54,920 nt of DNA from a virus (IMGVR_UViG_3300013005_000046:1-54920); one strand, 5' to 3'; counted from the stretch's first letter, positions 14,924 through 54,920 are shown. Notes: generated by a model from the letters alone, not told the origin. A program made the numbers and translations.

Positions 14924-15124
14924 CTATTCACCGTCCCAACACTCAGGGCTTGACTCGCAAGACTCCCAATAGGCGAAACTTGAACAAAAGGCACAGCCTT
15001 GAAACTTATCGTGTTGGACACAGTAATACCTATCTTGGTATTCCTCGCAACAGCGGAATAGGTCATCACCGCTTAGGGTGTAGTAAAAGCCTTCAGGCTT
15101 TAGAATTGTTTTGACTTGAGTCAT
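14924..15124 (-). CDS. Cys-rich hypothetical protein
   Basis: 66 aa, ATG at 15124 after GAAAGGATACAAATT. The sequence contains FRCCEEYQDRYYC, FQGCAFCSSF and ESCESSPECWDGE: eight cysteines, suggesting metal binding or disulfides. First gene of the minus operon running to 14452. Its ribosome site and position mirror those of the Cys-rich 46-aa gene at 15551 on the other strand, but the sequences are only loosely alike. Confidence 0.6.
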   Translation of the reverse strand: MTQVKTILKPEGFYYTLSGDDLFRCCEEYQDRYYCVQHDKFQGCAFCSSFAYWESCESSPECWDGE

Positions 15125-15550
15125 AATTTGTATCCTTTCTAAAATACTTGGCTTTTTTATTCGCTAGGCTCATACCGCTAAGGGTCTTATTTGCTAGGCT
15201 CAAAAGCTCTTTTTTGTTTATTCTTATTTATTTATCTATCTATACACTATCACGACCTACCGACATTTATAGCCCTTTTTAGCCCTTTTTTACCCCTTTT
15301 TTTATTTTGTTTACCTATTGTTCACTTAGTAAACAGTTATCCACAAGTTATCCACAGCTTTGTTATCAAATTGTTATAAAACTACGGCGTGTCGGTTTGA
15401 CATCTAGAAAATTTTTTGCGCCCCTGTGTATAACCCTGTGGATAAGTCTGTTATGAAACTGTTATAAAAACCCCCCTGAATTACGGCGTGTCGATTTGAC
15501 TTTGTCGGTGGTCTGTGATAGGTTATAAAGTAGTTAGAAAGGATAAATAA
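15125..15550. other. Candidate replication origin / divergent control region
   Basis: About 425 bases without a gene. It holds two perfect tandem TTATCCACA boxes 11 bp apart (15337-15345, 15348-15356), the reverse TGTGGATAA (15437-15445), a near match TGTGTATAA (15425-15433), and paired GTTATNAAA iterons near 15363 and 15450. Two copies of a 19-bp ACGGCGTGTC...TTGAC element lie at 15384-15402 and 15483-15501. T-rich and A-rich tracts lie at 15275-15310. It sits at the strand switch and is flanked by outward-facing operons. Origin function is inferred from the DnaA-type boxes. Confidence 0.55.
15497..15522 (+). promoter_or_regulatory. TGTCGGTGG-class promoter, copy a
   Basis: TGTCGGTGG at 15503-15511, then seven bases, then the -10 TAGGTT. 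TTGACT lies directly upstream at -35 spacing (17 bases). It drives the operon starting at 15551. Confidence 0.6.
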
Positions 15551-15691
15551 ATGACTAAATTGCTTACAAGGACTTGGGGAGATGTAGCCTATTGCGACAT
15601 CTGCGACAACTACACTGAGCAGGTGTATGTTGAGGAGTTCAATCAGAAGTGCTGTGAGAATTGCTACCTAGCGTATGGGGAGTGCAACTAA
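15551..15691 (+). CDS. 46-aa Cys-rich zinc-ribbon-like protein
   Basis: ATG at 15551 after GAAAGGATAAATAA. The sequence has YCDICDNYTEQ and CCENCYLAYGEC: two CxxC knuckles expected to bind zinc. TAATG overlap couples it to the next gene. First gene of a five-gene plus operon. Confidence 0.6.
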   Translation: MTKLLTRTWGDVAYCDICDNYTEQVYVEEFNQKCCENCYLAYGECN

Positions 15692-15786
15692 TGATAACAC
15701 TAACATTTGAAACTTGGGAAGAGTTTGATAACGCTATCTCAGGAATTGTTTCTATCGCTACCGAAATTTCTAAGGAGAATAAATGA
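15691..15786 (+). CDS. 31-aa peptide, paralogue of 14668-14766
   Basis: Begins MITLTFETWEEFDNAISGI, nearly the same as the minus-strand peptide at 14668. Coupled upstream by TAATG and downstream by an ATGA-type overlap. An acidic amphipathic helix is likely. Duplicated on both sides of the putative origin. Confidence 0.55.
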   Translation: MITLTFETWEEFDNAISGIVSIATEISKENK

Positions 15787-15872
15787 TGATACTAATTCAG
15801 GAAGTTGTTTACTCAGATGACACAATGTTTGACATCGAAACTATTCTAAGCGAAAAGGAAGTTGAAATATGA
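15783..15872 (+). CDS. 29-aa hypothetical peptide
   Basis: Begins MMILIQEVVYSDDTMFDIET. The start overlaps the preceding TGA, and the end overlaps the next ATG (ATGA). It is acidic with no recognisable domain. Coupling on both sides supports translation. Confidence 0.45.
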   Translation: MMILIQEVVYSDDTMFDIETILSEKEVEI

Positions 15873-15976
15873 TTTTTTATAACGGGTTCAATCTATTGTT
15901 AGATTTAGTTCTTGTGTTTATTGCTTTTGTAATTGGGCACGGAATTGGATACCGCAAAAATAAACCTCCGTTCTAA
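15869..15976 (+). CDS. 35-aa single-pass membrane peptide
   Basis: One hydrophobic helix (LLLDLVLVFIAFVIGHGIGY) followed by a short basic tail RKNKPPF. ATGA overlap with the preceding gene. The gene ends inside the third copy of the 19-bp ACGGCGTGTC element. Function unknown. Confidence 0.5.
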   Translation: MIFYNGFNLLLDLVLVFIAFVIGHGIGYRKNKPPF

Positions 15977-16134
15977 CGGCGTGTCAACTTGACAAGATCC
16001 CGAAAGGGCTGCGCCCCTGTGGATAACTCTGTGTAAAACTTTGTTATGATACTGTTATGAAAACCCCCCGAAATCTCCCCAAAATGTCGGTGGTTTATGA
16101 TAGGGTTTTAGTAAGTCAAAAGAAAGGAAACAAA
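15976..16134 (+). promoter_or_regulatory. Intergenic control module with TGTCGGTGG promoter, copy b
   Basis: In order: the 19-bp ACGGCGTGTC...TTGACA element (15976-15994), a CCCGAAAGGG hairpin followed by GCGCCCC, a TGTGGATAA box (16018-16026), paired GTTATGA iterons, and TGTCGGTGG (16085-16093) seven bases before TAGGGT. It drives the gene at 16135. Confidence 0.55.
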
Positions 16135-16290
16135 ATGGATTTGATGTGTGTTTACTGCGAGGGTGTCTTTTCACCTGACACTTATGTCTGCTCAAATTGT
16201 GATGAATACAAGGGGCTAATGCCACTGAAAGACGCTGTTGAGTATCTGGATTTGCCAATTGGTGATTTCCCAGAACTACGCCACGCCTAA
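16135..16290 (+). CDS. 51-aa zinc-ribbon-like protein
   Basis: Start chosen at ATG 16135 after AAAGGAAACAAA. A longer frame from 16057 would run through the promoter. Has MCVYCEGVF and VCSNCDEY (two CxxC) followed by an acidic C-terminal half. Zinc binding is likely, function unknown. Confidence 0.6.
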   Translation: MDLMCVYCEGVFSPDTYVCSNCDEYKGLMPLKDAVEYLDLPIGDFPELRHA

Positions 16291-16293
16291 AAA

Positions 16294-16315
16294 TGTCGGT
16301 GGGTTATGCTAGGTT
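16294..16315 (+). promoter_or_regulatory. TGTCGGTGG-class promoter, copy c
   Basis: TGTCGGTGG at 16294-16302, seven bases, then TAGGTT. No good -35 hexamer is present, which points to the TGTCGGTGG element as the upstream recognition site. Drives 16338 to 16905. Confidence 0.55.
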
Positions 16316-16337
16316 GGAACTAACGAAAGGAAATAAA

Positions 16338-16502
16338 ATGAAAAAAACAGAAATTGCTAGTGGTGGATTAGTTGAGCTTGTAAAGTCAAAGACTAACCTA
16401 ACAGACATTGGAGCTTATGCCTATGGGCTAACCCTTGTTTGGGCTTTGGCTGATGACAAGCTAAAGAATAAAGTTATTGAGCTAATTGAAAGTGAGGTCT
16501 AA
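16338..16502 (+). CDS. 54-aa hypothetical protein
   Basis: ATG 16338 after GAAAGGAAATAAA; the apparent upstream ATG at 16293 is part of the promoter motif. Largely helical (GGLVELVKSKTNLTDIGAYA, then LVWALADDKLKNKVIELIE). No recognised family. One base separates it from the next ATG. Confidence 0.55.
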   Translation: MKKTEIASGGLVELVKSKTNLTDIGAYAYGLTLVWALADDKLKNKVIELIESEV

Positions 16503-16682
16503 ATGACAGAAGAAGAATTTGATGATTGGCTAGATGATGTTTACCCAACTTACCAAATTGCTGGTGTTGAATTGCGTCCCTCGCAAATGCTAAAGAACTG
16601 CGACCCTATCGCATACAGAATTGCGTTATCAGAATGTGAAGATAGAGAAGAAGAATGGAATGGCTACTTTGACAACAAGTGA
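16503..16682 (+). CDS. 59-aa acidic hypothetical protein
   Basis: Begins MTEEEFDDWLDDVYPTYQIA. The ATG directly follows the previous TAA. Strongly acidic with a C-terminal EDREEEWNGYF. The small size and negative charge resemble phage proteins that mimic DNA or bind host factors, but that is speculation. Confidence 0.5.
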   Translation: MTEEEFDDWLDDVYPTYQIAGVELRPSQMLKNCDPIAYRIALSECEDREEEWNGYFDNK

Positions 16683-16764
16683 ATTGGAAGAACTAATTTT
16701 CAAGATTGACCTAATGCTAACTGAAGATGTTGGCGAATTGTTTACAACACCAGAGGAGAAATAA
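16660..16764 (+). CDS. 34-aa acidic peptide
   Basis: Begins MATLTTSELEELIFKIDLML and ends TTPEEK. It overlaps the previous gene by 23 bases with AAGAAGAATGGA as a possible ribosome site, and abuts the next ATG. A helical acidic peptide; coding is likely but unproven. Confidence 0.4.
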   Translation: MATLTTSELEELIFKIDLMLTEDVGELFTTPEEK

Positions 16765-16905
16765 ATGGAACTAGGTTTGATTGTTATTTTTATAATCGTT
16801 GGCGTTTCAATTTTTGTTGGAATACAACTTGCCGCAATTTTATTTTTGCTACAAGAAAATAATAGACTTGGCGAAGAGTTAGAAAAAAACGAACCGCCTT
16901 TTTGA
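16765..16905 (+). CDS. 46-aa single-pass membrane protein
   Basis: Hydrophobic helix at residues 3-29 (LGLIVIFIIVGVSIFVGIQL), then a polar tail ending EKNEPPF. The ribosome site GAGGAG lies in the preceding gene. The ending resembles RKNKPPF of the 35-aa membrane peptide at 15869, hinting at a family of small membrane peptides. Confidence 0.5.
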   Translation: MELGLIVIFIIVGVSIFVGIQLAAILFLLQENNRLGEELEKNEPPF

Positions 16906-16916
16906 TTTGACAATCA

Positions 16917-16936
16917 CCGAGAAATCGGGGCGCACC
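16917..16936 (+). terminator. GAAA-loop hairpin with GCGCACC tail
   Basis: CCGA-GAAA-TCGG stem-loop followed by GGCGCACC. One of several near-identical elements closing cassettes in this region. No T-run follows, so it is either an unusual terminator or an RNA-processing/stability element. Confidence 0.5.
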
Positions 16937-16991
16937 TGTTATCAAATTGTTATAAAAATTCTTACGAAGACACGGAAAAACCCCCCAGAAA

Positions 16992-17013
16992 TGTCGGTGG
17001 CTTATGCTAAGAT
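16992..17013 (+). promoter_or_regulatory. TGTCGGTGG-class promoter, copy d (leaderless)
   Basis: TGTCGGTGG at 16992-17000, seven bases, TAAGAT at 17008-17013, then six bases to ATG 17020. Transcription would begin at or next to the start codon. Confidence 0.6.
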
Positions 17014-17019
17014 TATTTT

Positions 17020-17172
17020 ATGTTGAACAGAAGTAATGAAGCAAGACGCAAGGCAGAGAGCCAAGCGTTATTCCAGTCTATGCTAAAGGCACCTCACCTA
17101 GTTCAGACTCCAAAGAAATACAAAGGCAGCCGTCAGTCTACAAAGGCTAAGGCAATAAAGGAGAGCGAATGA
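17020..17172 (+). CDS. 50-aa basic hypothetical protein, leaderless
   Basis: Begins MLNRSNEARRKAESQALFQS and is rich in Lys/Arg toward the end (KKYKGSRQSTKAKAIK). No ribosome site; the -10 box is seven bases from ATG. A small basic protein, possibly nucleic-acid-binding. ATGA overlap with the next gene. Confidence 0.55.
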   Translation: MLNRSNEARRKAESQALFQSMLKAPHLVQTPKKYKGSRQSTKAKAIKESE

Positions 17173-17321
17173 TTTTTCCAGGCTTGATTCACTATGTTTG
17201 TGAAGACTGTAATAAGTTTGTTCACACCAATGCGGTCTATTCCTATGACCTCAAGAATGTCTGTGGTAGATGTTATGCTATTCAGGCAGGACACCCTTCA
17301 ACAAGAAAGTTGGTAAAGTAA
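17169..17321 (+). CDS. 50-aa zinc-ribbon-like protein
   Basis: Contains YVCEDCNKFVH and NVCGRCYAIQAGH: two CxxC pairs, with nearby histidines. Coupled by ATGA upstream and TAATG downstream. The RNA- or DNA-binding zinc ribbon assignment is inference from the cysteine spacing. Confidence 0.6.
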   Translation: MIFPGLIHYVCEDCNKFVHTNAVYSYDLKNVCGRCYAIQAGHPSTRKLVK

Positions 17322-17515
17322 TGTCAAAGTATGCCGTATCAGTTCAGCTATCAGGTAATGATGGAAATGCTTTTGCCGTAATGGGAGCCGTAAAGTCTGC
17401 CCTCAAAAAAGCTGGAGCAAGCAAGGAAGAAATTGAGCAATACCTAACAGACTCTATGTCTGGCGACTACGACAACCTGTTGCGTGTAGCAATGGAATGG
17501 GTAAAGGTAAAGTAA
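17321..17515 (+). CDS. Conserved small phage protein (GNAFAVMG family)
   Basis: 64 aa from ATG 17321, coupled by TAATG. VQLSGNDGNAFAVMGAVKSA, then GASKEEIEQYLTDSMSGDYDN and MEWVKVK, matches a family widespread in phages and plasmids with the pattern QL.G.DGNAF...G.V. The family is small, alpha/beta and of unknown function. Confident as a gene. Confidence 0.7.
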   Translation: MSKYAVSVQLSGNDGNAFAVMGAVKSALKKAGASKEEIEQYLTDSMSGDYDNLLRVAMEWVKVK

Positions 17516-17640
17516 TGCTAGGACAACTAAGCATAAGCTTTTGTGATACCTGTAATGAGTTTGGTATGGTGTCGGTAGTAGATGGTAAACTAATGGTACA
17601 GTATTGTGATTGTGAAGTAGAAACTCTAGAAGGAGAATAG
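17515..17640 (+). CDS. 41-aa Cys-containing peptide
   Basis: Begins MLGQLSISFCDTCNEFGMVS, with later QYCDCE. CxxC plus CxC could bind a metal. TAATG coupling upstream. Its tail contains the AGAAGGAGAATAG ribosome site of the next gene. Confidence 0.55.
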   Translation: MLGQLSISFCDTCNEFGMVSVVDGKLMVQYCDCEVETLEGE

Positions 17641-17642
17641 AA

Positions 17643-17936
17643 ATGGGATACGCAACAGCAGTTGGACTTACAGATACAGACCTAACCCTATCAGACCAAT
17701 TGGCAATTCACTTTAGCAGTAATTGTTATCCACCAATTCCAAAAATAATGATACCTGTAGCAGTAGCAGCTATTGACGCCTATTGGGAAGAAGACTACGC
17801 TAGAGTAATCAAGTTGCCCGAAGGTGTTGAGTTTAGAAATGGTGAAGATTGGGTATTCGCCTCACAAGCAGTTGAGTCCCTCAGACTTGACGCCTGGTTG
17901 CAGGAAATTTACTGGACAGACGAAGACGAAGAGTAA
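17643..17936 (+). CDS. Conserved hypothetical phage protein
   Basis: 97 aa, ATG 17643 after GAAGGAGAATAGAA. The sequence has AAIDAYWEEDYARVIKLPEG and ends in an acidic ESLRLDAWLQEIYWTDEDEE. No domain is named with certainty. Confidence 0.6.
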   Translation: MGYATAVGLTDTDLTLSDQLAIHFSSNCYPPIPKIMIPVAVAAIDAYWEEDYARVIKLPEGVEFRNGEDWVFASQAVESLRLDAWLQEIYWTDEDEE

Positions 17937-18002
17937 ATGGATAACCTGATTGTAATTATCTTTGCAGTCTGGATAGTAATAATGTTTCTTGCTTTGGAGT
18001 GA
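17937..18002 (+). CDS. 21-aa membrane peptide
   Basis: MDNLIVIIFAVWIVIMFLAL plus E: a single hydrophobic helix with almost no tails. ATG directly follows the TAA of the previous gene. Coding is plausible from position and hydrophobic pattern, but length limits certainty. Confidence 0.4.
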   Translation: MDNLIVIIFAVWIVIMFLALE

Positions 18003-18005
18003 CGT

Positions 18006-18026
18006 CCCCCAGAAATGGGGCGCACC
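18006..18026 (+). terminator. Hairpin with GCGCACC tail
   Basis: CCCC-CAGAAAT-GGGG stem-loop followed by CGCACC, directly after the stop at 18002. Same class as the element at 16917. Confidence 0.5.
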
Positions 18027-18079
18027 TATTGATCCACAATAGAATGTTAATTAAGAATTAACTAAAAAATCCCCCAAAA

Positions 18080-18101
18080 TGTCGGTAGGTCATGGTAATG
18101 T
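18080..18101 (+). promoter_or_regulatory. TGTCGGTAG-class promoter, copy e
   Basis: TGTCGGTAG (one mismatch) at 18080-18088, seven bases, then TAATGT, preceded by a CCCCCAAAA tract. Drives the gene at 18126, which has GAAAGGAAACCC as ribosome site. Confidence 0.5.
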
Positions 18102-18125
18102 TATCTTATCAACGAAAGGAAACCC

Positions 18126-18644
18126 ATGGACTACTACGCAATTTATTCAGGTCTAATCAAGAACGCTACTTTTGGTCAAGTAGAGCAAGCAAGCAAGTGG
18201 TATCTAGACGCAGAACGTGTTGCAGCACAGGTTGCACGTAATCTAGATTCTACCCTTGAGGTTGGTGCAAGCGTAGTGTCTGCATTCTCACCTAGAGAGC
18301 GTTGGACTAACAACGTTACTAAGGCGATTAGCTTCTCACTTGGTAATCACATTCCAGGATTCAAGAACAACATGCTAATGGCTAACAATGCAATAGCCTT
18401 TGGGTATGACGCTCTAAAAGGATTGAAGACTAACGCATTCGCTAGAGCTATCGCAGGTGATGAGAATGCTGTAGTGATTGACGTATGGATGTTGCGAGCT
18501 GTTGGTATTGAAAAGAAAACACCTAATCAAACACAGTATAAGCAATTAGCTGACGCAGTTGCTAAGGTTGCATTTGATAATGGCATGACACCTAGAGCAA
18601 CTCAAGCCCTAATCTGGATTGTTGTTAGAGGTAGTTCGGAATAG
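18126..18644 (+). CDS. DUF7178-like conserved phage protein
   Basis: 172 aa. Key blocks are VVSAFSPRERWTNNVTKAIS, ALKGLKTNAFARAIAGDENA, VVIDVWMLRAVG and GMTPRATQALIWIVVRGS. These match a family common in actinobacteriophages (the DUF7178 label is from memory). The K-x-x-x-F...GD...VDVW order is reminiscent of helix-hairpin-helix glycosylase cores, so a DNA repair or base-flipping role is possible but speculative. Start ATG follows GAAAGGAAACCC. Confidence 0.65.
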   Translation: MDYYAIYSGLIKNATFGQVEQASKWYLDAERVAAQVARNLDSTLEVGASVVSAFSPRERWTNNVTKAISFSLGNHIPGFKNNMLMANNAIAFGYDALKGLKTNAFARAIAGDENAVVIDVWMLRAVGIEKKTPNQTQYKQLADAVAKVAFDNGMTPRATQALIWIVVRGSSE

Positions 18645-18648
18645 CTAC

Positions 18649-18668
18649 CCCTCGAAAGAGGGCGCACC
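18649..18668 (+). terminator. GAAA-loop hairpin with GCGCACC tail
   Basis: CCCTC-GAAA-GAGGG followed by CGCACC just after the stop codon at 18644. A perfect 5-bp stem with a GNRA tetraloop, and no T-run beyond a short CTTTT. Confidence 0.55.
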
Positions 18669-18750
18669 CTTTTGCCTGATTGTCAAGTTTAAGAAGATAA
18701 CAATTTTTCCCCCAAATCGTTATAAATAAAAGCTGCTAAAGACTTATAAA

Positions 18751-18772
18751 TGTCGGTGGGTGGGGCTATAAT
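18751..18772 (+). promoter_or_regulatory. TGTCGGTGG-class promoter, copy f
   Basis: TGTCGGTGG at 18751-18759, seven bases, then a perfect TATAAT. TTATAA occupies the -35 position. Confidence 0.6.
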
Positions 18773-18839
18773 AGAAACATCACAGAAAAAGACAAAAAGT
18801 AATACAAAAAGTTGTTATCAAAATGTTATCAAAATGGTA

Positions 18840-18868
18840 TTGACAATTTGACCTTTTTCTGGGATAAT
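18840..18868 (+). promoter_or_regulatory. Sigma70-type promoter beside iterons
   Basis: TTGACA (18840-18845), 17 bases, GATAAT (18863-18868). Three GTTATCAAAAT-like 11-bp units lie directly upstream (about 18812-18840). It drives the gene at 18933 together with copy f. Iterons abutting the -35 suggest regulation by their binding protein. Confidence 0.55.
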
Positions 18869-18932
18869 GGATTTATCAACAAGTCGTTGGTAAATAATCA
18901 AAACAGTCCCTCTGGGGCGGAAAGAAGCAAAA

Positions 18933-19085
18933 ATGAAAGACACTCTAACTGTTGGCTCACAGTTCACTACTGCTAAGTCTGGCGTAGTAGGCACAATTCA
19001 GGAAGTCAAGGAGAACAAGAACGGCTCGTTCCGTGTTCGCCTAGATGTAAATGGTGAGCCTCGCTGGACTACTGTTAGCAAGTAA
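18933..19085 (+). CDS. 50-aa conserved small beta-barrel-like protein
   Basis: Begins MKDTLTVGSQFTTAKSGVVG, then TIQEVKENKNGSFRVRLDV and WTTVSK. The strand pattern and Gly positions suggest a small SH3/KOW-like barrel. Similar short proteins occur in actinobacteriophages. Nucleic-acid binding is possible, unproven. The leader contains two promoters. Confidence 0.6.
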   Translation: MKDTLTVGSQFTTAKSGVVGTIQEVKENKNGSFRVRLDVNGEPRWTTVSK

Positions 19086-19130
19086 TCCGCCTCTGCTGGG
19101 TATCAGATAAAACTGCCCAACCCTCACAAA

Positions 19131-19152
19131 TGTCGTATGCTAATGCTACAAT
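19131..19152 (+). promoter_or_regulatory. Degenerate TGTCG promoter, copy g
   Basis: TGTCGTATG at 19131-19139, seven bases, then TACAAT. The spacing matches the intact copies though the element has diverged. It drives the gene at 19195. Confidence 0.45.
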
Positions 19153-19194
19153 GATAAAGCAATAAACCCAATCAAGAAAAGGAAGAAACAAACT

Positions 19195-19638
19195 ATGGCA
19201 AGAACCCTGTCAGTAAAAATCCCAGTCGCAAAACTAATCGCAGATGTAGAGCAGTCTATTGCTAAGATAGATGTTGCTATTGCTGAGTATGCTGAAAAGC
19301 GTAAGCAGTATGAAGCAGAAAGCAAGCAGTATGACCTAGACATTGTTGCTCACGCTATCAAAGCACTATCAGACCCAAGTAATGTTGGAACAGAACACGG
19401 CTCATTAGTTCGTGTGTCAAGAGGATACAACGGAAACATTTCTGTTGATTTTGATGTTGAGGCACTTGGACTACCAGCCAAGCCAGTAGAGCCAGCAAGA
19501 CCAAATGAGAAAACTTATTTTGGTCGTGAGTATGCCACACGCAAAGAAGTCTTAGAGCGTAATCTTCGTATTCTAAAGATGACAACCCAAGAGGAAGTTT
19601 CGGCAAGTTCTTACTCTGCTGTTATTGACCTTATCTAA
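19195..19638 (+). CDS. Coiled-coil conserved phage protein
   Basis: 147 aa. Residues 10-55 form a long amphipathic helix (LIADVEQSIAKIDVAIAEYA, EKRKQYEAESKQYD). The middle has a beta segment (GSLVRVSRGYNGNISVDFDV). The C-terminus has the helix TRKEVLERNLRILKMTTQEE. No family name is assigned. Start ATG follows AGGAAGAAACAAACT. Oligomerisation through the coiled coil is likely. Confidence 0.65.
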   Translation: MARTLSVKIPVAKLIADVEQSIAKIDVAIAEYAEKRKQYEAESKQYDLDIVAHAIKALSDPSNVGTEHGSLVRVSRGYNGNISVDFDVEALGLPAKPVEPARPNEKTYFGREYATRKEVLERNLRILKMTTQEEVSASSYSAVIDLI

Positions 19639-19857
19639 ACTTAGGGAACAAGCCTTGCTTTGACAAGGAAAACGCCCGAAGCAACCTGAGCAAGTTGTGA
19701 AACTGCTTCCCCTTCCCCCTCTAAAGCTGAAGATCGTAAGATCACAAATACTGCGGGGGACTCAAAGGGGGGCGCACCTTATAACAGATAGATAACATCT
19801 TTAAGAAAAGCTTTAAGAACCCTTGTAAATGTCGGTGGGTACCTGTAAAATATAGAC
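19639..19857 (+). ncRNA. Possible structured RNA segment plus copy h promoter
   Basis: About 219 bases without a gene. Between 19650 and 19770 there are nested fold-backs (CCTTG/CAAGG, GAAGCA/TGCTTC, GATC-GTAA-GATC) ending in GGGGGGCGCACC. TTTAAGAACCC follows, then TGTCGGTGG (19830-19838), seven bases, and TAAAAT (19846-19851). The fold-backs could form a small RNA or a terminator with upstream pairing. No known RNA family is recognised. Confidence 0.35.
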
Positions 19858-19998
19858 ATGACAAAAAACCAGATTATAGATGAACAAGCAGAAGAAATCC
19901 GTGAGGCCTTGGCTGACTACTATGCTAACCCAGAGGAGTACACACTCGAAGACTGGGAAGAAATCTTTCAGGATAGGGACCCATTCGAATTCCTATAA
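19858..19998 (+). CDS. 46-aa acidic hypothetical protein, leaderless
   Basis: Begins MTKNQIIDEQAEEIREALAD. The -10 TAAAAT ends seven bases before ATG and no ribosome site is present. Very acidic helix-rich protein. Its stop codon TAA is immediately followed by the TGTCGGTGG of the next promoter (copy i), a very compact arrangement. Confidence 0.6.
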   Translation: MTKNQIIDEQAEEIREALADYYANPEEYTLEDWEEIFQDRDPFEFL

Positions 19999-20020
19999 TG
20001 TCGGTGGGTCATGGTAGAAT
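19999..20020 (+). promoter_or_regulatory. TGTCGGTGG-class promoter, copy i
   Basis: TGTCGGTGG at 19999-20007 directly after the previous stop, seven bases, then TAGAAT. It drives 20047-20585. Confidence 0.6.
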
Positions 20021-20046
20021 TCAAAAAAGAAATGAAAGGAAAACAA

Positions 20047-20247
20047 ATGTCTTATGACACAATAAGAAACGTTGGCTACGTATCGTATGACGGAAACTAT
20101 GGAGCGGAAGCGGACTTGCTAATGTTTGATAGTAATGCACTTACCTTGCAGCAGTGGGAAACCCTAGGTGAGCTAGGCGATAACTCCAGGTATGAGTATG
20201 TTGAAGCAGTATTCAACAACAAGGACCTAACTGAGTGGGAGGGCTAA
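20047..20247 (+). CDS. 66-aa hypothetical protein
   Basis: ATG 20047 follows GAAAGGAAAACAA; the longer frame from 20011 would start inside the promoter. YVSYDGNYGAEADLLMFDSN and LTLQQWETLGELGDNSRYEY suggest an alpha/beta protein. No family is recognised. TAATG coupling to the next gene. Confidence 0.6.
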   Translation: MSYDTIRNVGYVSYDGNYGAEADLLMFDSNALTLQQWETLGELGDNSRYEYVEAVFNNKDLTEWEG

Positions 20248-20585
20248 TGTTGGATACTCTAGATACTTATCTAATCGATGAGTTCACTGATGAAGCTAAA
20301 GGTATTGCATTCGACACATGTCACAAAATTTATATTCTCATGGATAACGAACAGGTTGACCTTATGCGTGAGTATGGTTATGGTGATGCAAATGACCCAG
20401 ACAGTCTACTGACGTCGTACCAGCTGACACCAAGAGAGATGAGCAACAAGGTTGTTGAGTGGTTCCATGGCTCGTGTGGCCTAAGATTTATCAGTGCCGT
20501 TTATTCTGATGAGCGAGGTTTTGTAGACGTCGTCAGTCAGTTTGAAGGCAATGGATATGACGAAGATGAGGATGAAGACTTGTAG
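20247..20585 (+). CDS. 112-aa acidic hypothetical protein
   Basis: Start at ATG 20247, overlapping the previous stop (TAATG). The sequence includes GIAFDTCHKIYILMDNEQVD, MREYGYGDANDPDSLLTS and an acidic end YDEDEDEDL. No recognised domain. Probably co-regulated with the 66-aa partner. Confidence 0.6.
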   Translation: MLDTLDTYLIDEFTDEAKGIAFDTCHKIYILMDNEQVDLMREYGYGDANDPDSLLTSYQLTPREMSNKVVEWFHGSCGLRFISAVYSDERGFVDVVSQFEGNGYDEDEDEDL

Positions 20586-20731
20586 TGCATTCCCTTACTT
20601 CCTTTCTGGAATGTACTACCGTCCTGGCCATGACGTAAATCTGGCCACCTTCAATTTGCGCCCCGTCGGGCGTGTCGGATCCATTTACGAAGGCTATTAA
20701 GAATGCCCCAAAATAAACCCAGTCTTGACAA

Positions 20732-20753
20732 TGTCGGTGGTTGGGTGTAAAAT
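20732..20753 (+). promoter_or_regulatory. TGTCGGTGG-class promoter, copy j (with perfect TTGACA)
   Basis: TTGACA ends one base before TGTCGGTGG (20732-20740), then seven bases and TAAAAT. This is the best -35/-10 match of the set. The rest of 20586-20731 is non-coding and includes GCGCCCCGTCGGGCGTG and TTTACGAAGG. Confidence 0.6.
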
Positions 20754-20791
20754 AAGACTATAATAAACAACCCCTAAAGAAAGTAGAAAAC

Positions 20792-21805
20792 ATGGCACAT
20801 TTGCTAGAATCACAAAACGGAGAAACCGCATTTGCTTCATTCAGACAGCCAGCTTGGCATGGTCTAGGCGAAGTATTCACTGAGGAAGTATCCACAGCAG
20901 AAATGCTAAAGAAAGCTAAACTAAACAATTGGGATGTTCGCTTGGAAGACATCGAGATTCCTAATCAGTTTAGTTCCGACAAGAATTATTCTTTTGTCGT
21001 TAGAGATAACCCGTTTACCTTAGGCAACAAGGATGTTCTTGGTGTTGTTGGTGAGCGTTATGTTCCTCTCCAGAACGAGGACTTGTTTGATTTCGCAGAC
21101 AACCTACTAGACAATGGTGGTCGTTGGGAAACAGCAGGTTCAATCAAGGGCGGTAGAGTTGTATTCGGTGCTCTTGCTCTTGAGCGTGAAACAGTTCTTG
21201 ACAAGGACGGCGTTGCTGACAAGATAAACACTTATCTTCTTGTAAACACATCTCATGACGGGTCTATTGCTATTCAGGCAAGTATCACACCAGTTCGTGT
21301 TGTTTGTGCTAACACACTAAACCTTGCTCTTGGTAATCGTGGTCGTGGTGGTTCAGTAAAGCAGTCATTCAAGATTAGACACACACAGACTGCTCAGGGT
21401 AAGGTTGCTGTTGCTCGTGAGGCTCTTGGTCTTGCTAATGCTTACATGGATGAGTTCGACAAAATGGCAAGTGCTATGATTGAAACTGAAATTACTAAGG
21501 CACAGTTTGACAAGATTGTAAACTTGGCTTATCCAATGCCAAAGGATGACGCTAAGAAAGTTTCAATCACCAAACACGCTAACAAGATTGACCTCATCAA
21601 CGACATCTATGTTGGTGATTTCAATAACACAATTAGCGGAACAGCTTGGGGAGCATTGAACGCTCTAACCGAAAGACTAGACTGGCACAGAGCAGGTCGC
21701 AAGGGACAGACTGAAACAATTTTGTCTGGTGCTTCTGGTTTTGACCCAGTCATCAACGCAGAGAAGAATCGCTTGATGAAAATTGTTCAGAGTGTAATGG
21801 CATAA
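20792..21805 (+). CDS. DUF932 family phage/plasmid-like protein
   Basis: 337 aa, full length for the DUF932 (TIGR03299) family. Landmarks: PAWHGLGEVFTEEVSTAEML near the N-terminus, GVVGERYVPLQNEDLFDFAD, GRVVFGALALE, INTYLLVNTSHDGSIAIQAS, TPVRVVCANTLNLAL and IRHTQTAQGKVAVAREALGL. The family is widespread in phages and plasmids; its biochemical role is not settled. It is the longest gene in the cassette region and has its own strong promoter, which suggests high early expression. Confidence 0.85.
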   Translation: MAHLLESQNGETAFASFRQPAWHGLGEVFTEEVSTAEMLKKAKLNNWDVRLEDIEIPNQFSSDKNYSFVVRDNPFTLGNKDVLGVVGERYVPLQNEDLFDFADNLLDNGGRWETAGSIKGGRVVFGALALERETVLDKDGVADKINTYLLVNTSHDGSIAIQASITPVRVVCANTLNLALGNRGRGGSVKQSFKIRHTQTAQGKVAVAREALGLANAYMDEFDKMASAMIETEITKAQFDKIVNLAYPMPKDDAKKVSITKHANKIDLINDIYVGDFNNTISGTAWGALNALTERLDWHRAGRKGQTETILSGASGFDPVINAEKNRLMKIVQSVMA

Positions 21806-21930
21806 CCCAAAACTCCTAGGCATGAGAATAAACTGCCTCCAATTTCGGGGCGCAATCTAATAATAACCTAGTTATCTATCTAAAATTCTTTAAGAAGATC
21901 CTAAAATTTTTGCCGAAATCTCTTGACTTT

Positions 21931-21952
21931 TGTCGGTGGTTAGCCTTATACT
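21931..21952 (+). promoter_or_regulatory. TGTCGGTGG-class promoter, copy k
   Basis: TTGACT, then TGTCGGTGG at 21931-21939, seven bases, then TATACT. Upstream is TTTAAGAAGATCC. It drives the long operon starting at 21980. Confidence 0.6.
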
Positions 21953-21979: not shown

Positions 21980-22477
21980 ATGGGAACCAGAAACCTAACA
22001 GTAGTAAAGAATCTAGAAGGCACTACAAAGATTGCTCTATACGGACAATGGGATGGCTATCCTAGCTATTCAGGTGTTGAAGCCCTAAAGTTTCTAAGAG
22101 ATAAAGTAAATAGGGATAACCTATTGGTAGAACTACAGCAAGTAGAGTTTATTAGCGAGGAAGAATCAGAAGCCCTTTGGGAAACCTTTGAGCATGATGA
22201 CAATGACCCAACCAAAGCACAAACAGCTATGCCAGGACTAACCAGGGATACTGGTATCGGTATTCTAGAGATAGTTGCTAATACTATGAATCCTATCAAG
22301 ATGATTGACAATAGTGAGTTTAGGAACGATACCCTATTTTGTGAGGGTGTCTATGAGGTAGACTTTAGCACTAACAAGTTTATTACTACCTATGCTGACA
22401 AGGTTGTTGAGTATGACCTTGATACCCTGCCAAGTGATGAAGAATACCTAGCCCAATGGGAAACTGCTAACGCATAA
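21980..22477 (+). CDS. Conserved phage protein (YGQWDGYPS family)
   Basis: 165 aa, ATG after CAGAAAGGAACCCAA. The N-terminus MGTRNLTVVKNLEGTTKIAL, then YGQWDGYPSYSGVEALKFL, is diagnostic of a family found in many unrelated phages; function unknown. The C-terminal half is acidic with CEGVYEVDFSTNKF. First gene of an operon of about five small genes. Confidence 0.7.
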   Translation: MGTRNLTVVKNLEGTTKIALYGQWDGYPSYSGVEALKFLRDKVNRDNLLVELQQVEFISEEESEALWETFEHDDNDPTKAQTAMPGLTRDTGIGILEIVANTMNPIKMIDNSEFRNDTLFCEGVYEVDFSTNKFITTYADKVVEYDLDTLPSDEEYLAQWETANA

Positions 22478-22644: not shown

Positions 22645-22822
22645 TAATTTAGATACAAAACATGTAACAGGAGACCTAGCAACAGACGTTCAGTTCATCA
22701 AAGATAATCTTAGTATTGATGACGCTGAGTTCTTTAGACAGGCTATGGCCAACATAATGTCGGAGGGTACTGCTAGAATAGAATCCCTAACCAATGAAGA
22801 GATAGATAGGTTCTTTGAATGA
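22625..22822 (+). CDS. 65-aa hypothetical protein
   Basis: Start ambiguous: ATG 22625 or ATG 22634 (MNFDNLDTKHVTGDLATDVQ); both overlap the previous gene and neither has a strong ribosome site. Helical, with IKDNLSIDDAEFFRQAMANI and ESLTNEEIDRFFE. ATGA overlap with the next gene. Confidence 0.55.
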   Translation: MTAMNFDNLDTKHVTGDLATDVQFIKDNLSIDDAEFFRQAMANIMSEGTARIESLTNEEIDRFFE

Positions 22823-23277: not shown

Positions 23278-23306
23278 TTGACTTTTTCCCCGAATTGTGA
23301 GATACT
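23278..23306 (+). promoter_or_regulatory. Sigma70-type promoter with TTTACGAA upstream
   Basis: TTGACT (23278-23283), 17 bases, GATACT (23301-23306); no TGTCGGTGG element. CTTTACGAAC lies just upstream, as at several other promoters here. Confidence 0.55.
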
Positions 23307-33300: not shown

Positions 33301-33690
33301 TTAACTTATTTTAATTTGCTTTGGCTTCTTTTCTTCTGGAATATTCCTGACCAAATCAATATACAGGATTCCATCCTCAAAGCCAGCTGCCTCTACCTCA
33401 AAGTACTCAGGTAGTGTGAATGAACGGTGAAACTTACGAGCAGCAATACCCTTGTGTAGGTATTCCTTTTCTGTAGTTTCTGGCTTTTCAGCCTTGATAG
33501 AAAGAACGCTCTTTTCAGTAGTAATACTGATGTCTTTCTTCTTGAATCCAGCTACCGCAAATTCCATAACAAGTTTGTCATCATTAATCTTGACAACATT
33601 GTAGGGTGGGTATGCTGGGGTAGTGCTAGTAGCAGAAAAGAACTTGTCAATATCTAGACCAAGTCCTCCGAATGGTGTTGTAATAACCAT
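33301..33690 (-). CDS. hsp20: Hsp20 small heat shock protein
   Basis: 129 aa. An alpha-crystallin domain spans residues about 28-125: PPYNVVKINDDKLVMEFAVA, GFKKKDISI, KSVLSIKAEK, YLHKGIAARKFHRSFTLPE and DGILYIDLVRNIPEE. It ends with the IxI-like QIKIS. ATG follows AAGGAGATGATATAA. ATP-independent holdase, expected to protect folding virion or host proteins. Hsp20 is known from several large phages. A TAAGGTAGC...GCTGCTACAAGG fold-back downstream may end transcription. Confidence 0.9.
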   Translation of the reverse strand: MVITTPFGGLGLDIDKFFSATSTTPAYPPYNVVKINDDKLVMEFAVAGFKKKDISITTEKSVLSIKAEKPETTEKEYLHKGIAARKFHRSFTLPEYFEVEAAGFEDGILYIDLVRNIPEEKKPKQIKIS

Positions 33691-36781: not shown

Positions 36782-37831
36782 ATGACAGTAGTTGCAATTT
36801 CTCACGGATATCCACCACTTTGGAACATGGGTGGAGAAGTATCTCTTCATAGATCAATGGTAGCTGTTAAAGGAAATAGGGTTGTTTTAACAAATACTGA
36901 AGCCGAATACTATATTGATGGGATACGTGTTAGTCAAATAAATACCCCAGATGTCCTTAATGTAAACGCAAATCCATCTCCAATTGCTGAACAGCTTAAA
37001 GATCTTAATGCCAGAGTTGTAATTGCTCAAAACGAACTATCGTTACCCGCAGCTTTAGCAGCAAGCTCTGCTGGGGCAATCTCTATAGCAAGTGTTCATA
37101 CACCACCAAGGTATGGTAAAAACATTCGAGAGGGAGTTGTTTATTCTGATTATGCAGTATACAACACTGAAACTTCTGCAAGGCAGTGGGGGGAGCCTGG
37201 GGCTGTAGTTTTGCATCCACCTATTAGCGATTTACCGTCTAACACTAACACCAGTGGTGACGCTTACACCTGCCTTTCATCTTTAAGGAACAAAGGTGTT
37301 GAGGTAATGCTTTCCTTAGCAGAAACGCATGCAGATAAAAGATTCATTATTGTTAGATCGCCAGCCGAACCAACTCATGGTATACCAAACTTAGAGGAAA
37401 GAGTTTCTAAGCTGCCAAACGTTGAGCTACATCCAAGGGTAGATCCCAAAGATGTATATAAATACCTAGAGCAAACAAGAATACTCATAGTGCCATCTAT
37501 GTATGAAACTTATGGGATGTCCGCTATTGAAGCAGCAGGATATGGTATTCCATCTATTCACGTAGATACCCCGCATGTGAGGGAGGGTATTGGAGATGCT
37601 GCAGTGTTAATTAGTCCACTAAGCGTAGCTGAAGCTGAAAATGGAATTAGACTTATAGAGAATAGCTATAACCATTATAGTGAAAAGGTAAGATCCAAGG
37701 CTGAATGGATTCACGACAGGCAAGCTATGGAGCTTGATAACTTTTCTGAGTTTGTCAAAAACGTTAGCAAGCCAACCGACAAAACTGCAAGACAGAAGGC
37801 TGTTGCAAGAGCTTCTAGGATAAATCGCTAA
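36782..37831 (+). CDS. Glycosyltransferase family 4-like
   Basis: 349 aa from ATG 36782 after AGGGGCTAAA. The N-terminal Rossmann domain starts VVAISHGYPPLWNMGGEVSL. The C-terminal domain has the GT4 signature PSMYETYGMSAIEAAGYGIP, with E residues for the nucleotide, and then HVREGIGDAAVLISP. Retaining GT-B transferase. Converges with the Stealth-like gene with a four-base overlap. Confidence 0.85.
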   Translation: MTVVAISHGYPPLWNMGGEVSLHRSMVAVKGNRVVLTNTEAEYYIDGIRVSQINTPDVLNVNANPSPIAEQLKDLNARVVIAQNELSLPAALAASSAGAISIASVHTPPRYGKNIREGVVYSDYAVYNTETSARQWGEPGAVVLHPPISDLPSNTNTSGDAYTCLSSLRNKGVEVMLSLAETHADKRFIIVRSPAEPTHGIPNLEERVSKLPNVELHPRVDPKDVYKYLEQTRILIVPSMYETYGMSAIEAAGYGIPSIHVDTPHVREGIGDAAVLISPLSVAEAENGIRLIENSYNHYSEKVRSKAEWIHDRQAMELDNFSEFVKNVSKPTDKTARQKAVARASRINR

Positions 37832-38514
37832 GCTTCATAAACTGTTTTGTTTGCAAAATCAACATCTAAAATCTTATCTTTAATTATTTCAAAAGAATCG
37901 TCATTGCTAGATAGGTAGTCATATTTTAACATATCTATCTTGTCTGATTTTTTTGCAAGGCCACCAGAAGAATACACCTTAACGTCATCGATCTCTATTC
38001 CACCAACATTAAATACGTTGCCATACCTTGATCTCCATAAATCTGGAACATCTATTATTTTTAAAAGCTTTTCTTTTTCCATAACCATTGGAACATGCAA
38101 CTCATAATCTAAAACGTTTTCCTTTGCTCTGCGAGATAAGTTAGTTAAGGTTTTCTTTAGCATTAAAACATATCTTGTATTTCCAGTTAGCTCTTTATAC
38201 CTTGATATTTTTTTAAATAGAGATCCACCATGCATATATGGAACGTTGTCGACCTTTTTTATAACATAAAAATCATCATTCATCAAGATAAATGAGTCTG
38301 ATACCTGCTCAGAATTACAGATGGCCCTAAGATTATTTCTAGCATTTACATACTTAGATTTATTCTGAGGAACGTGTAAGTGGTTTCCTACATACCAGTC
38401 TGGCTTTCCACCAACTACCCACAAATTATCAAAGGCTAGGTTCTTTACGGCAGACCTAATAGAATACCTAAGCTCTTCATTATCGCCGTCTCTACAAATA
38501 TAAACTAAGTCCAT
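37828..38514 (-). CDS. Stealth-like glycan phosphotransferase
   Basis: 228 aa from ATG 38514; an in-frame start at 38538 lies upstream of the TATACT box (38529-38524). VYICRDGDNEELRYSIRSAV matches Stealth CR1, and VPQNKSKYVNARNNLRAICN and SDSFILMNDDFYVIK match CR2. Later NVGGIEIDDVKVYSSGG is less conserved. Stealth proteins transfer hexose-1-phosphate onto polysaccharides. This fits the glycan cassette although it is on the opposite strand. Confidence 0.75.
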   Translation of the reverse strand: MDLVYICRDGDNEELRYSIRSAVKNLAFDNLWVVGGKPDWYVGNHLHVPQNKSKYVNARNNLRAICNSEQVSDSFILMNDDFYVIKKVDNVPYMHGGSLFKKISRYKELTGNTRYVLMLKKTLTNLSRRAKENVLDYELHVPMVMEKEKLLKIIDVPDLWRSRYGNVFNVGGIEIDDVKVYSSGGLAKKSDKIDMLKYDYLSSNDDSFEIIKDKILDVDFANKTVYEA

Positions 38515-38541
38515 TATAATAAAAGTATAGCATAGCAAAAC

Positions 38542-39600: not shown

Positions 39601-39885
39601 CTACTCATCTGTTGTTAAGTCTTTCCATTTTGAGCCCCAGTCTTTTTTAGTTCTATGGCTATTAAACTCTCTAGATATTTTACCAGACTCTAGAAAGATT
39701 CCTCCCCAGACTCCCCATTCTTTTTGAGAAACACCAACAGCAAAACACTTTCTAGCAACAGGACAACCAGAGCAGACTTTGTCAATCGCTGGCCTTAGTC
39801 CTTCGTTCTCTTCATACTTATCAAAAAATAGATTTGTGTCATACCCTACACAAGATCCGAGCTCTTTCCACTCATGCTTGTGCAT
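39601..39885 (-). CDS. whiB: WhiB-family Fe-S transcription factor
   Basis: 94 aa. Four conserved cysteines: GSCVGYD, then KVCSGCPVARKCFAVG, the usual Cys...Cys-x2-Cys-x5-Cys set for a [4Fe-4S] cluster. The WGVWGGIF beta-turn follows and then a basic segment (SHRTKKDWGSKWK). WhiB proteins are confined to Actinobacteria and their phages and bind the host principal sigma factor region 4. A phage copy probably redirects host transcription. It overlaps the upstream gene by 14 bases. Confidence 0.9.
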   Translation of the reverse strand: MHKHEWKELGSCVGYDTNLFFDKYEENEGLRPAIDKVCSGCPVARKCFAVGVSQKEWGVWGGIFLESGKISREFNSHRTKKDWGSKWKDLTTDE

Positions 39886-43640: not shown

Positions 43641-44039
43641 CTATGCCTTTCTCTTAGCTGCAAGCTCATCAAAGTTTTTTACTTTTGTATCACCCAAGTA
43701 ACCCCAAGCATAGCCCTTATCAATCATCTCAGTATTGATTGAGTTACCTTCTCCATCAAGATATAACCAACCAAGGATACGACCATACTTCTCGGATGAA
43801 TCCATCTTTTCAGTTTTAATAACAACAGTCTTTGCTGCCTTGATGCGATCTGCCAAATACTTTTTAGACTCTAGCCCTAAAGCTTTTTCTACTTTGTCCT
43901 TAGTACGACTTTCTGGGGTATCAATGCCAGCCAGTCTAACACGTGAAGTAAAACTAATATCAAAACCTAAATCAATTACAACATCAATAGTGTCTCCATC
44001 GACTACATTAGTAACCTCTTTTACATAATACTCAAACAT
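43641..44039 (-). CDS. Staphylococcal-nuclease-like thermonuclease
   Basis: 132 aa. VTNVVDGDTIDVVIDLGFDI, VRLAGIDTPESRTKD and GRILGWLYLDGEGNSINTEM, then GYAWGYLG, are the canonical SNase blocks with Asp ligands, catalytic R in RLAGIDTPE, E in TPES and R in YGRILG. Ca2+-dependent nuclease. No signal peptide, so it acts inside the cell, perhaps in host DNA or RNA turnover. It overlaps the DUF2061 gene upstream by eight bases. Confidence 0.85.
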   Translation of the reverse strand: MFEYYVKEVTNVVDGDTIDVVIDLGFDISFTSRVRLAGIDTPESRTKDKVEKALGLESKKYLADRIKAAKTVVIKTEKMDSSEKYGRILGWLYLDGEGNSINTEMIDKGYAWGYLGDTKVKNFDELAAKRKA

Positions 44040-49418: not shown

Positions 49419-49946
49419 TTACGTATTTAAAATGTCAATAGTTCCAGAGCATGTCTGAGAAAACTTTATAGCTGCCTTAACTGCTCCCTGAGCAACTTCT
49501 TCAGGCTTATCAAAAGAAGTGGCTCCATATAAATAACCCAAAGCAAAATGACATCCAGAGCCTATAGCAAGATACCCCAAAGAGTAATCATTTAAAGACA
49601 TGTCAGAAGAGCTGTGCTCATAAAGCCTGTCCTTAATTCCAATAATCATCTCTAGCTCAGAATCTTTTGACGTATCTACCCACCACTCATCGTAGAATTC
49701 TCTAAGGTATTTTAAGAAAGTTGTGTGCATGAATTCATCTAGGTTTTCATCTTCATGTGGTCTTGGTGGATCAAAGGTATAGGCTAACCTCTGCCCTTCC
49801 ATAGTTCCAGCAAATCCAATTACGTATGGTCCAAAACGATGAATCTTTGGTTTTGTTAAATGCATAATGCTGTCTTCAGTAGAAGCCCCACGCTCCCCAG
49901 CAATATATACTTTATTATTAGCCTTTAGGCCAACTATGCATGTCAT
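49419..49946 (-). CDS. Proteasome/HslV-like Ntn hydrolase
   Basis: 175 aa. The N-terminus MTCIVGLKANNKVYIAGERG puts Thr2 in the place of the catalytic N-terminal threonine after Met removal. YVIGFAGTMEGQRLAY, LAIGSGCHFALGYLYGA and VAQGAVKAAIKFSQTCSG follow the proteasome beta / HslV pattern. It probably forms a ring peptidase or a related amidase. Phage homologues are known as hypothetical proteins. ATG follows GAGGGG. Confidence 0.7.
   Translation of the reverse strand: MTCIVGLKANNKVYIAGERGASTEDSIMHLTKPKIHRFGPYVIGFAGTMEGQRLAYTFDPPRPHEDENLDEFMHTTFLKYLREFYDEWWVDTSKDSELEMIIGIKDRLYEHSSSDMSLNDYSLGYLAIGSGCHFALGYLYGATSFDKPEEVAQGAVKAAIKFSQTCSGTIDILNT

Positions 49947-52288: not shown

Positions 52289-54920
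<2,632 letters not shown>

Follow-up and report, generated by a model that had tools for sequence, protein, structure and literature searches.

What reads a short element that recurs in front of small genes in the genome of an uncultured virus? The window analysed here, the whole 54,920-nucleotide (nt) stretch IMGVR_UViG_3300013005_000046, carries nine exact copies of TGTCGGTGG, all on the plus strand and each followed exactly 7 nt downstream by a TAnnnT −10 box. The string occurs nowhere else in the window on either strand, and dinucleotide shuffles lead one to expect 0.16 copies. Counted from the box TGTCRGTG, the gap to TAnnnT is 8 nt at all nine exact sites. The original prediction, made from the sequence of the window, listed these copies at the same positions with the same spacing, and took them for a class of phage promoters, marked by an element at constant distance from the −10 and by a weak −35. 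The copies are as it described, and a promoter with an activator in its spacer fits them well. However, the class is not specific to phages, but corresponds to a known host promoter, RecA-NDp, which depends on PafBC.

The consensus of the phage sites equals the published RecA-NDp string, tTGTCRgtg followed after 8 nt by TannnT, which was derived from LexA/RecA-independent damage genes of Mycobacterium tuberculosis (PMC5656591). Activity of the recA P1 promoter of M. smegmatis is lost when pafBC is deleted (PMC5656591). In the polymerase complex, the helix-turn-helix (HTH) of PafB touches the −26 motif and PafC touches domain 4 of sigma-A (PMC11804915), with the PafB contact placed at −24 in a later paper (PMC12340889). 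PafBC engages solely together with polymerase at the promoter, and becomes active once single-stranded DNA has bound to the WYL domains (PMC11804915). The window sites are almost certainly promoters of this type. At phage and host sites alike, the base after the box tends to be G or C, a bias that is absent from the published string. The promoter type is already known; its adoption by phages in arrays appears new among the literature searched, in which nothing linking PafBC promoters with phage gene expression was found (subscription papers lay mostly outside the search). A search on the bare string TGTCGGTGG returned unrelated papers only.

We scanned the window with a 39-column matrix trained on 878 sites from 104 fragments, all from other phages. 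The scan recovered the nine exact copies as well as the two variants named in the original prediction (18080 and 19131), and added sites at 17570(+), 22758(+), 17258(+) and, leftward, 15244–15265(−) (Table 1). Window sites score 13–34 bits, compared with 11.4 bits for the top match in ten Markov-shuffled controls. The class is confined to 15.2–22.8 kb and is nearly all rightward. It is not purely so, since the leftward copy TGTCGGTAGgtcgtgaTAGTGT was recovered; this copy forms a divergent pair with 15503(+), and the earlier statement that none precedes a leftward gene was mistaken. Two copies, those at 17258 and 22758, fall within short open frames and are assigned with less certainty. A clear −35 (TTGACT or TTGACA) is present at 15503, 20732 and 21931 only, as anticipated for some of the copies. 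A weak additional match in a different region, at 38529(−) (TGGCAGTCC...TATGCT, 13.2 bits), lies directly upstream of the leftward gene 37828–38538.

Across related phages, positions 1–4 of the box are invariant and position 6 is nearly so, position 5 is either A or G, and positions 7 and 8 are partly variable. A scan of IMG/VR with AATGTCGGTGG-N7-TAnnnT yielded at least 119 fragments, to which scanning with the A form added at least 102. Because the first set was picked by the G form, the A form serves as an unbiased test of spacing. Among the relatives selected in this way, TAnnnT lies at 8 nt in 94 of 120 copies of TGTCAGTG, at 9 nt in two and at 5–7 nt in none; in the A-form-selected set it is 8 nt away in 17 of 26 copies of TGTCGGTG. 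In a logo of 262 unique sites, TG marks an extended −10, and a pyrimidine (81%) then A (69%) stand exactly 7 nt past the −10. In keeping with a promoter type that needs no consensus −35, TTGACA is matched at three or fewer of its six positions in 205 of the 262 sites. When the start is placed by the YA initiator and by the leaderless ATG 7 nt past the −10, the box falls at −28 to −21. Start codons in the array fragments (near-identical phages included) form two peaks past the −10, at 6–7 nt and at 19–36 nt, with almost nothing between them. In the nearer peak, to which the window sites 16992 and 19830 belong, the message would begin with the A of the ATG; in the farther one a ribosome-binding stretch is present. 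Spacing, initiator and start-codon peaks are, as far as sequence can tell, what one expects of functional promoters whose start is fixed.

Such arrays are widespread. At least 104 fragments of uncultured phages hold three or more copies, and among the matches listed these copies lie on a single strand in 103 of 104 fragments and number 3–24 per array. Whole records reach 24 copies, whereas a reversed-pattern control gives 0–1 per record. By DNA similarity the array fragments (among the matches listed) fall into 16 groups, one of which has 81 members, so that much of the set represents one broad lineage. Cultured actinophages that share the cassette genes DUF932 or DUF7178 were considered as array members and rejected, because the 15 phages, and one Bacteroides phage, have 0–1 copies each. 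The array characterizes a subset of the uncultured phages, and inheritance of the cassette genes does not by itself bring it along. A near-identity search with the promoter region against annotated phages gave no match.

The phage NrdF protein is 83–85% identical to NrdF of freshwater Luna-lineage Microbacteriaceae (Rhodoluna, Aquiluna). Co-occurrence with the phage WhiB gene was a check suggested in the original prediction. Of the 14 array-bearing records that reach 40 kb, 9 have a WhiB gene, as does 1 of the 12 records in which the motif occurs once or twice; by these counts WhiB is a sign of an actinophage and not an explanation of the motif. Because of the NrdF identity, together with WhiB as a mark of actinophages, the host is likely to be a freshwater member of the Microbacteriaceae. 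An adjacent pair of WYL genes is present in nearly all streamlined genomes of probable hosts and in neither of two Bartonella controls. In Rhodoluna limnophila the pair corresponds to solved PafBC structures, with PafB matching 6sj9, 9fnd and 7p5x, and PafC matching 6sj9, 7p5x and the HTH_PafC domain. The recA gene of this species bears TGTCGGTAGccaaaagTAaTGT, a TAG variant that it has in common with phage sites 15244, 17570 and 18080, and the motif is also found there at a UvrD-type helicase gene and a LysM-domain gene. In Microbacterium album the motif lies upstream of recA, uvrB and nine paralogous DUF222-family genes. The Microbacterium uvrB and most of the DUF222-family genes are leaderless, with the start codon 6–7 nt past the −10, and the DUF222 set is a predicted damage-inducible, leaderless repeat family. 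Over 150 genomes of the probable host family, the motif has 1135 matches versus 61 for a reversed control.

Each site comprises a −26 box TGTCRGTG(G/C), 8 nt, TAnnnT (often as an extended −10) and a predicted start at the A 7 nt past the −10. In the host, the HTH of PafB binds this box and PafC binds domain 4 of sigma-A, which enables the housekeeping polymerase to start without a good −35 (sigma adaptation); we propose that the phage sites are read likewise. Single-stranded DNA from genome entry, replication or breakdown of host DNA would activate PafBC, and a phage block of about fifteen small genes, driven by host RNA polymerase with SigA and PafBC, would come on together. No such activator was found in the phage, and therefore host PafBC is probably used; it is quite likely that it drives the window promoters in infection. 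PafBC dependence, the single-stranded DNA trigger and the timing in infection are all three points that we infer from sequence. With more reserve, we favor a broader proposal, namely that widespread, apparently non-lysogenic freshwater actinophages have placed a gene block under the host's single-stranded-DNA-sensing PafBC, such that their own replication or the breakdown of host DNA would be the start signal, through activation and not through SOS derepression.

Alternatively, a phage-encoded activator that mimics the specificity of PafB could read the box, which would put the genes under the control of the phage and not of the host damage sensor. A dedicated regulator of the phage would go well with many-copy arrays, most of the cassette proteins lack a known function, and the records are fragments. 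Nonetheless, searches for a WYL domain (the window and 17 array-bearing relatives) and for sigma-70 region 2 (the window and 14 such relatives) found neither in these fragmentary records, and so gave no sign of a phage sigma factor, one of the readers considered in the original prediction. Moreover, host and phage agree in the consensus, in the G/C preference after the box, in accepting A or G at position 5, and in the TAG variant. We regard a phage activator as unlikely.

It is very improbable that these are plain sigma-A promoters in which the element only improves spacer geometry and an activator is unnecessary. A usable −35 (at least four of the six positions of TTGACA, with 17-nt spacing) is kept at 57 of the 262 phage sites, and many sites have the extended −10 TG. 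Most sites lack a −35, yet their 8-nt box is near-invariant, with positions 1–4 and 6 fixed, and the 15 cultured actinophages that share cassette genes dispense with the box.

The array might also act as a decoy that titrates PafBC and polymerase off host repair genes, with transcription being secondary. With up to 24 per fragment, the copies are indeed more numerous than the exact sites in streamlined host genomes, which are few. However, the engagement of PafBC solely with polymerase at a promoter (PMC11804915) speaks against titration, and a full −10, an initiator and well-placed genes would be superfluous for a decoy, so we give this idea little credence. It is scarcely credible that the copies are stoperator-type repressor sites like those of cluster A mycobacteriophages such as L5, although they are asymmetric, same-strand and mostly intergenic in an actinophage, and although some related fragments share a GP88 gene with mycobacteriophages. 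Each copy stands at a set distance from a −10 and an initiator, and a search of the window and 14 array-bearing relatives for tyrosine integrases gave none (serine integrases were not searched for). The L5 consensus GGTGGMTGTCAAG has no exact match in the window and five weak ones, not above chance and none in the array.

Several observations weigh against control by host PafBC. The host is assigned from NrdF identity only. In Aquiluna-type genomes the recA box has drifted consistently to TGTCTTAG...TAGCTT, which suggests an altered PafB specificity in that lineage, and exact sites are few. The usable −35 elements, present at about a fifth of phage sites, mean that some promoters could work without PafBC. 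Because most cassette proteins lack a known function, a link to DNA damage is invisible from the genes themselves, and because the records are fragmentary, a phage activator may lie outside them.

In the array fragments, the genes that directly follow the sites (509 genes in 119 families) encode mostly short proteins, and few of those scanned have a known domain. Named cassette products are GP88, an Api92-like protein, DUF932 and DUF7178, the last of which some phage annotations call a DNA glycosylase. Two cassette genes of the window and one from a relative had no match in annotated phages. Overall, the block looks like an early-type cassette. An element at cassette borders, GGGGCGCACCT, is not significant by count. 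A separate sequence, GCGTGTCRNNTTGAC, occurs three times on the plus strand (15387–15401, 15486–15500 and 15979–15993; 0.01 expected), and one copy is near-palindromic (TGTCAACTTGACA). At 15486 the sequence runs into the −35 of the 15503 promoter; a second regulator may bind there.

Table 1. Promoter sites and other features located in the window; +1 denotes the predicted start of transcription.
Feature	Position	Strand	Score (bits)	Remarks
Leftward PafBC-type promoter TGTCGGTAGgtcgtgaTAGTGT	15244–15265	−	16.4	pyrimidine-A at +1; TAG variant as in Rhodoluna recA; first well-placed leftward ATG at 15124
PafBC-type promoter	15503–15524	+	13.9	exact; −35 TTGACT, 17-nt spacer; gene start 15551
PafBC-type promoter	16085–16106	+	25.4	exact; gene start 16135
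PafBC-type promoter	16294–16315	+	26.3	exact; gene start 16338
PafBC-type promoter	16992–17013	+	29.0	exact; ATG 17020 at predicted +1, leaderless
Doubtful copy TGTCTGTGG	17258–17279	+	13.1	within short frame, before start 17321; without pyrimidine-A at +1
Variant copy TGTCGGTAG	17570–17591	+	16.9	before start 17643
Variant copy TGTCGGTAG	18080–18101	+	23.6	before DUF7178 gene 18126–18644
PafBC-type promoter, TATAAT	18751–18772	+	34.3	exact; upstream of gene 18933–19085
Plain sigma-A-like promoter TTGACA-17-GATAAT	18840–18868	+		between 18751 site and gene 18933
Variant copy TGTCGTATG	19131–19152	+	14.0	before gene 19195–19638
PafBC-type promoter	19830–19851	+	27.7	exact; ATG 19858 at predicted +1, leaderless
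PafBC-type promoter	19999–20020	+	29.5	exact; gene start 20047
PafBC-type promoter	20732–20753	+	28.1	exact; −35 TTGACA, 17-nt spacer; before DUF932 gene 20792–21805
PafBC-type promoter	21931–21952	+	21.3	exact; −35 TTGACT, 18-nt spacer; gene 21980–22477
Variant copy TGTCGGAGG	22758–22779	+	27.7	within short frame, before start 22819
Plain sigma-A-like promoter TTGACT-17-GATACT	23278–23306	+		before gene block without PafBC-type sites
Phage WhiB gene	39697–39870	−		in another cluster, distant from promoter array

Elsewhere in the window, the phage encodes an HSP20 chaperone (33301–33690(−)), a staphylococcal-nuclease-like protein (43641–44039(−)) and a class I ribonucleotide reductase, NrdE/NrdF (52289–54840(−)). 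The product of gene 49419–49946(−) matches the proteasome-subunit family PF00227 at a marginal level (E 8e-5).

Compared with the RecA-NDp (recA P1-type) promoters of Mycobacterium and other actinobacteria, the phage sites are alike in the box, the R position, the 8-nt gap, TAnnnT and the weak −35. The box spans roughly −28 to −21 relative to the predicted start, and host recA and uvrB carry the motif. The phage sites differ in forming many-copy arrays in front of small genes of no known function and not repair genes, in having mostly AA and not T before the box (partly a selection effect), and in the usable −35 at about a fifth of them. Because of these −35 elements and the sigma-A-like promoter at gene 18933, some sites may have basal activity, an arrangement that we liken to the two-promoter recA.

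In the classical view, phage promoters are tied to DNA damage through LexA or RecA and lysogeny. SOS-controlled promoters of temperate phages use LexA or repressors cleaved by RecA. They likewise tie phage genes to damage of host DNA, but act by derepression, whereas the promoters described here would be activated by PafBC. The actinobacterial SOS-box core GAACN4GTTC is absent from the array, the single exact core in the window being at 2781. If our proposal is true, there is a second, activator-based route, used by phages that show no sign of lysogeny by the tyrosine integrase test, and loss of PafBC would lower phage gene expression and yield. The motif also provides a sequence tag for the gene block in many unannotated viral contigs.

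The stoperators of L5 are asymmetric, oriented, intergenic repeats that serve as repressor sites and are not known to be locked to promoters. The array resembles them in asymmetry, orientation and intergenic placement in an actinophage, but differs in sequence and in its locking to promoters. Similar in its working is the appropriation of sigma by MotA and AsiA of phage T4, an example of middle promoters that depend on a host activator or a phage sigma factor; there, phage activators placed between region 4 of sigma and a poor −35 make the housekeeping polymerase read a new box. The T4 middle promoters would work similarly to those of the window, except that their activators are phage proteins, whereas the candidate here is PafBC of the host.

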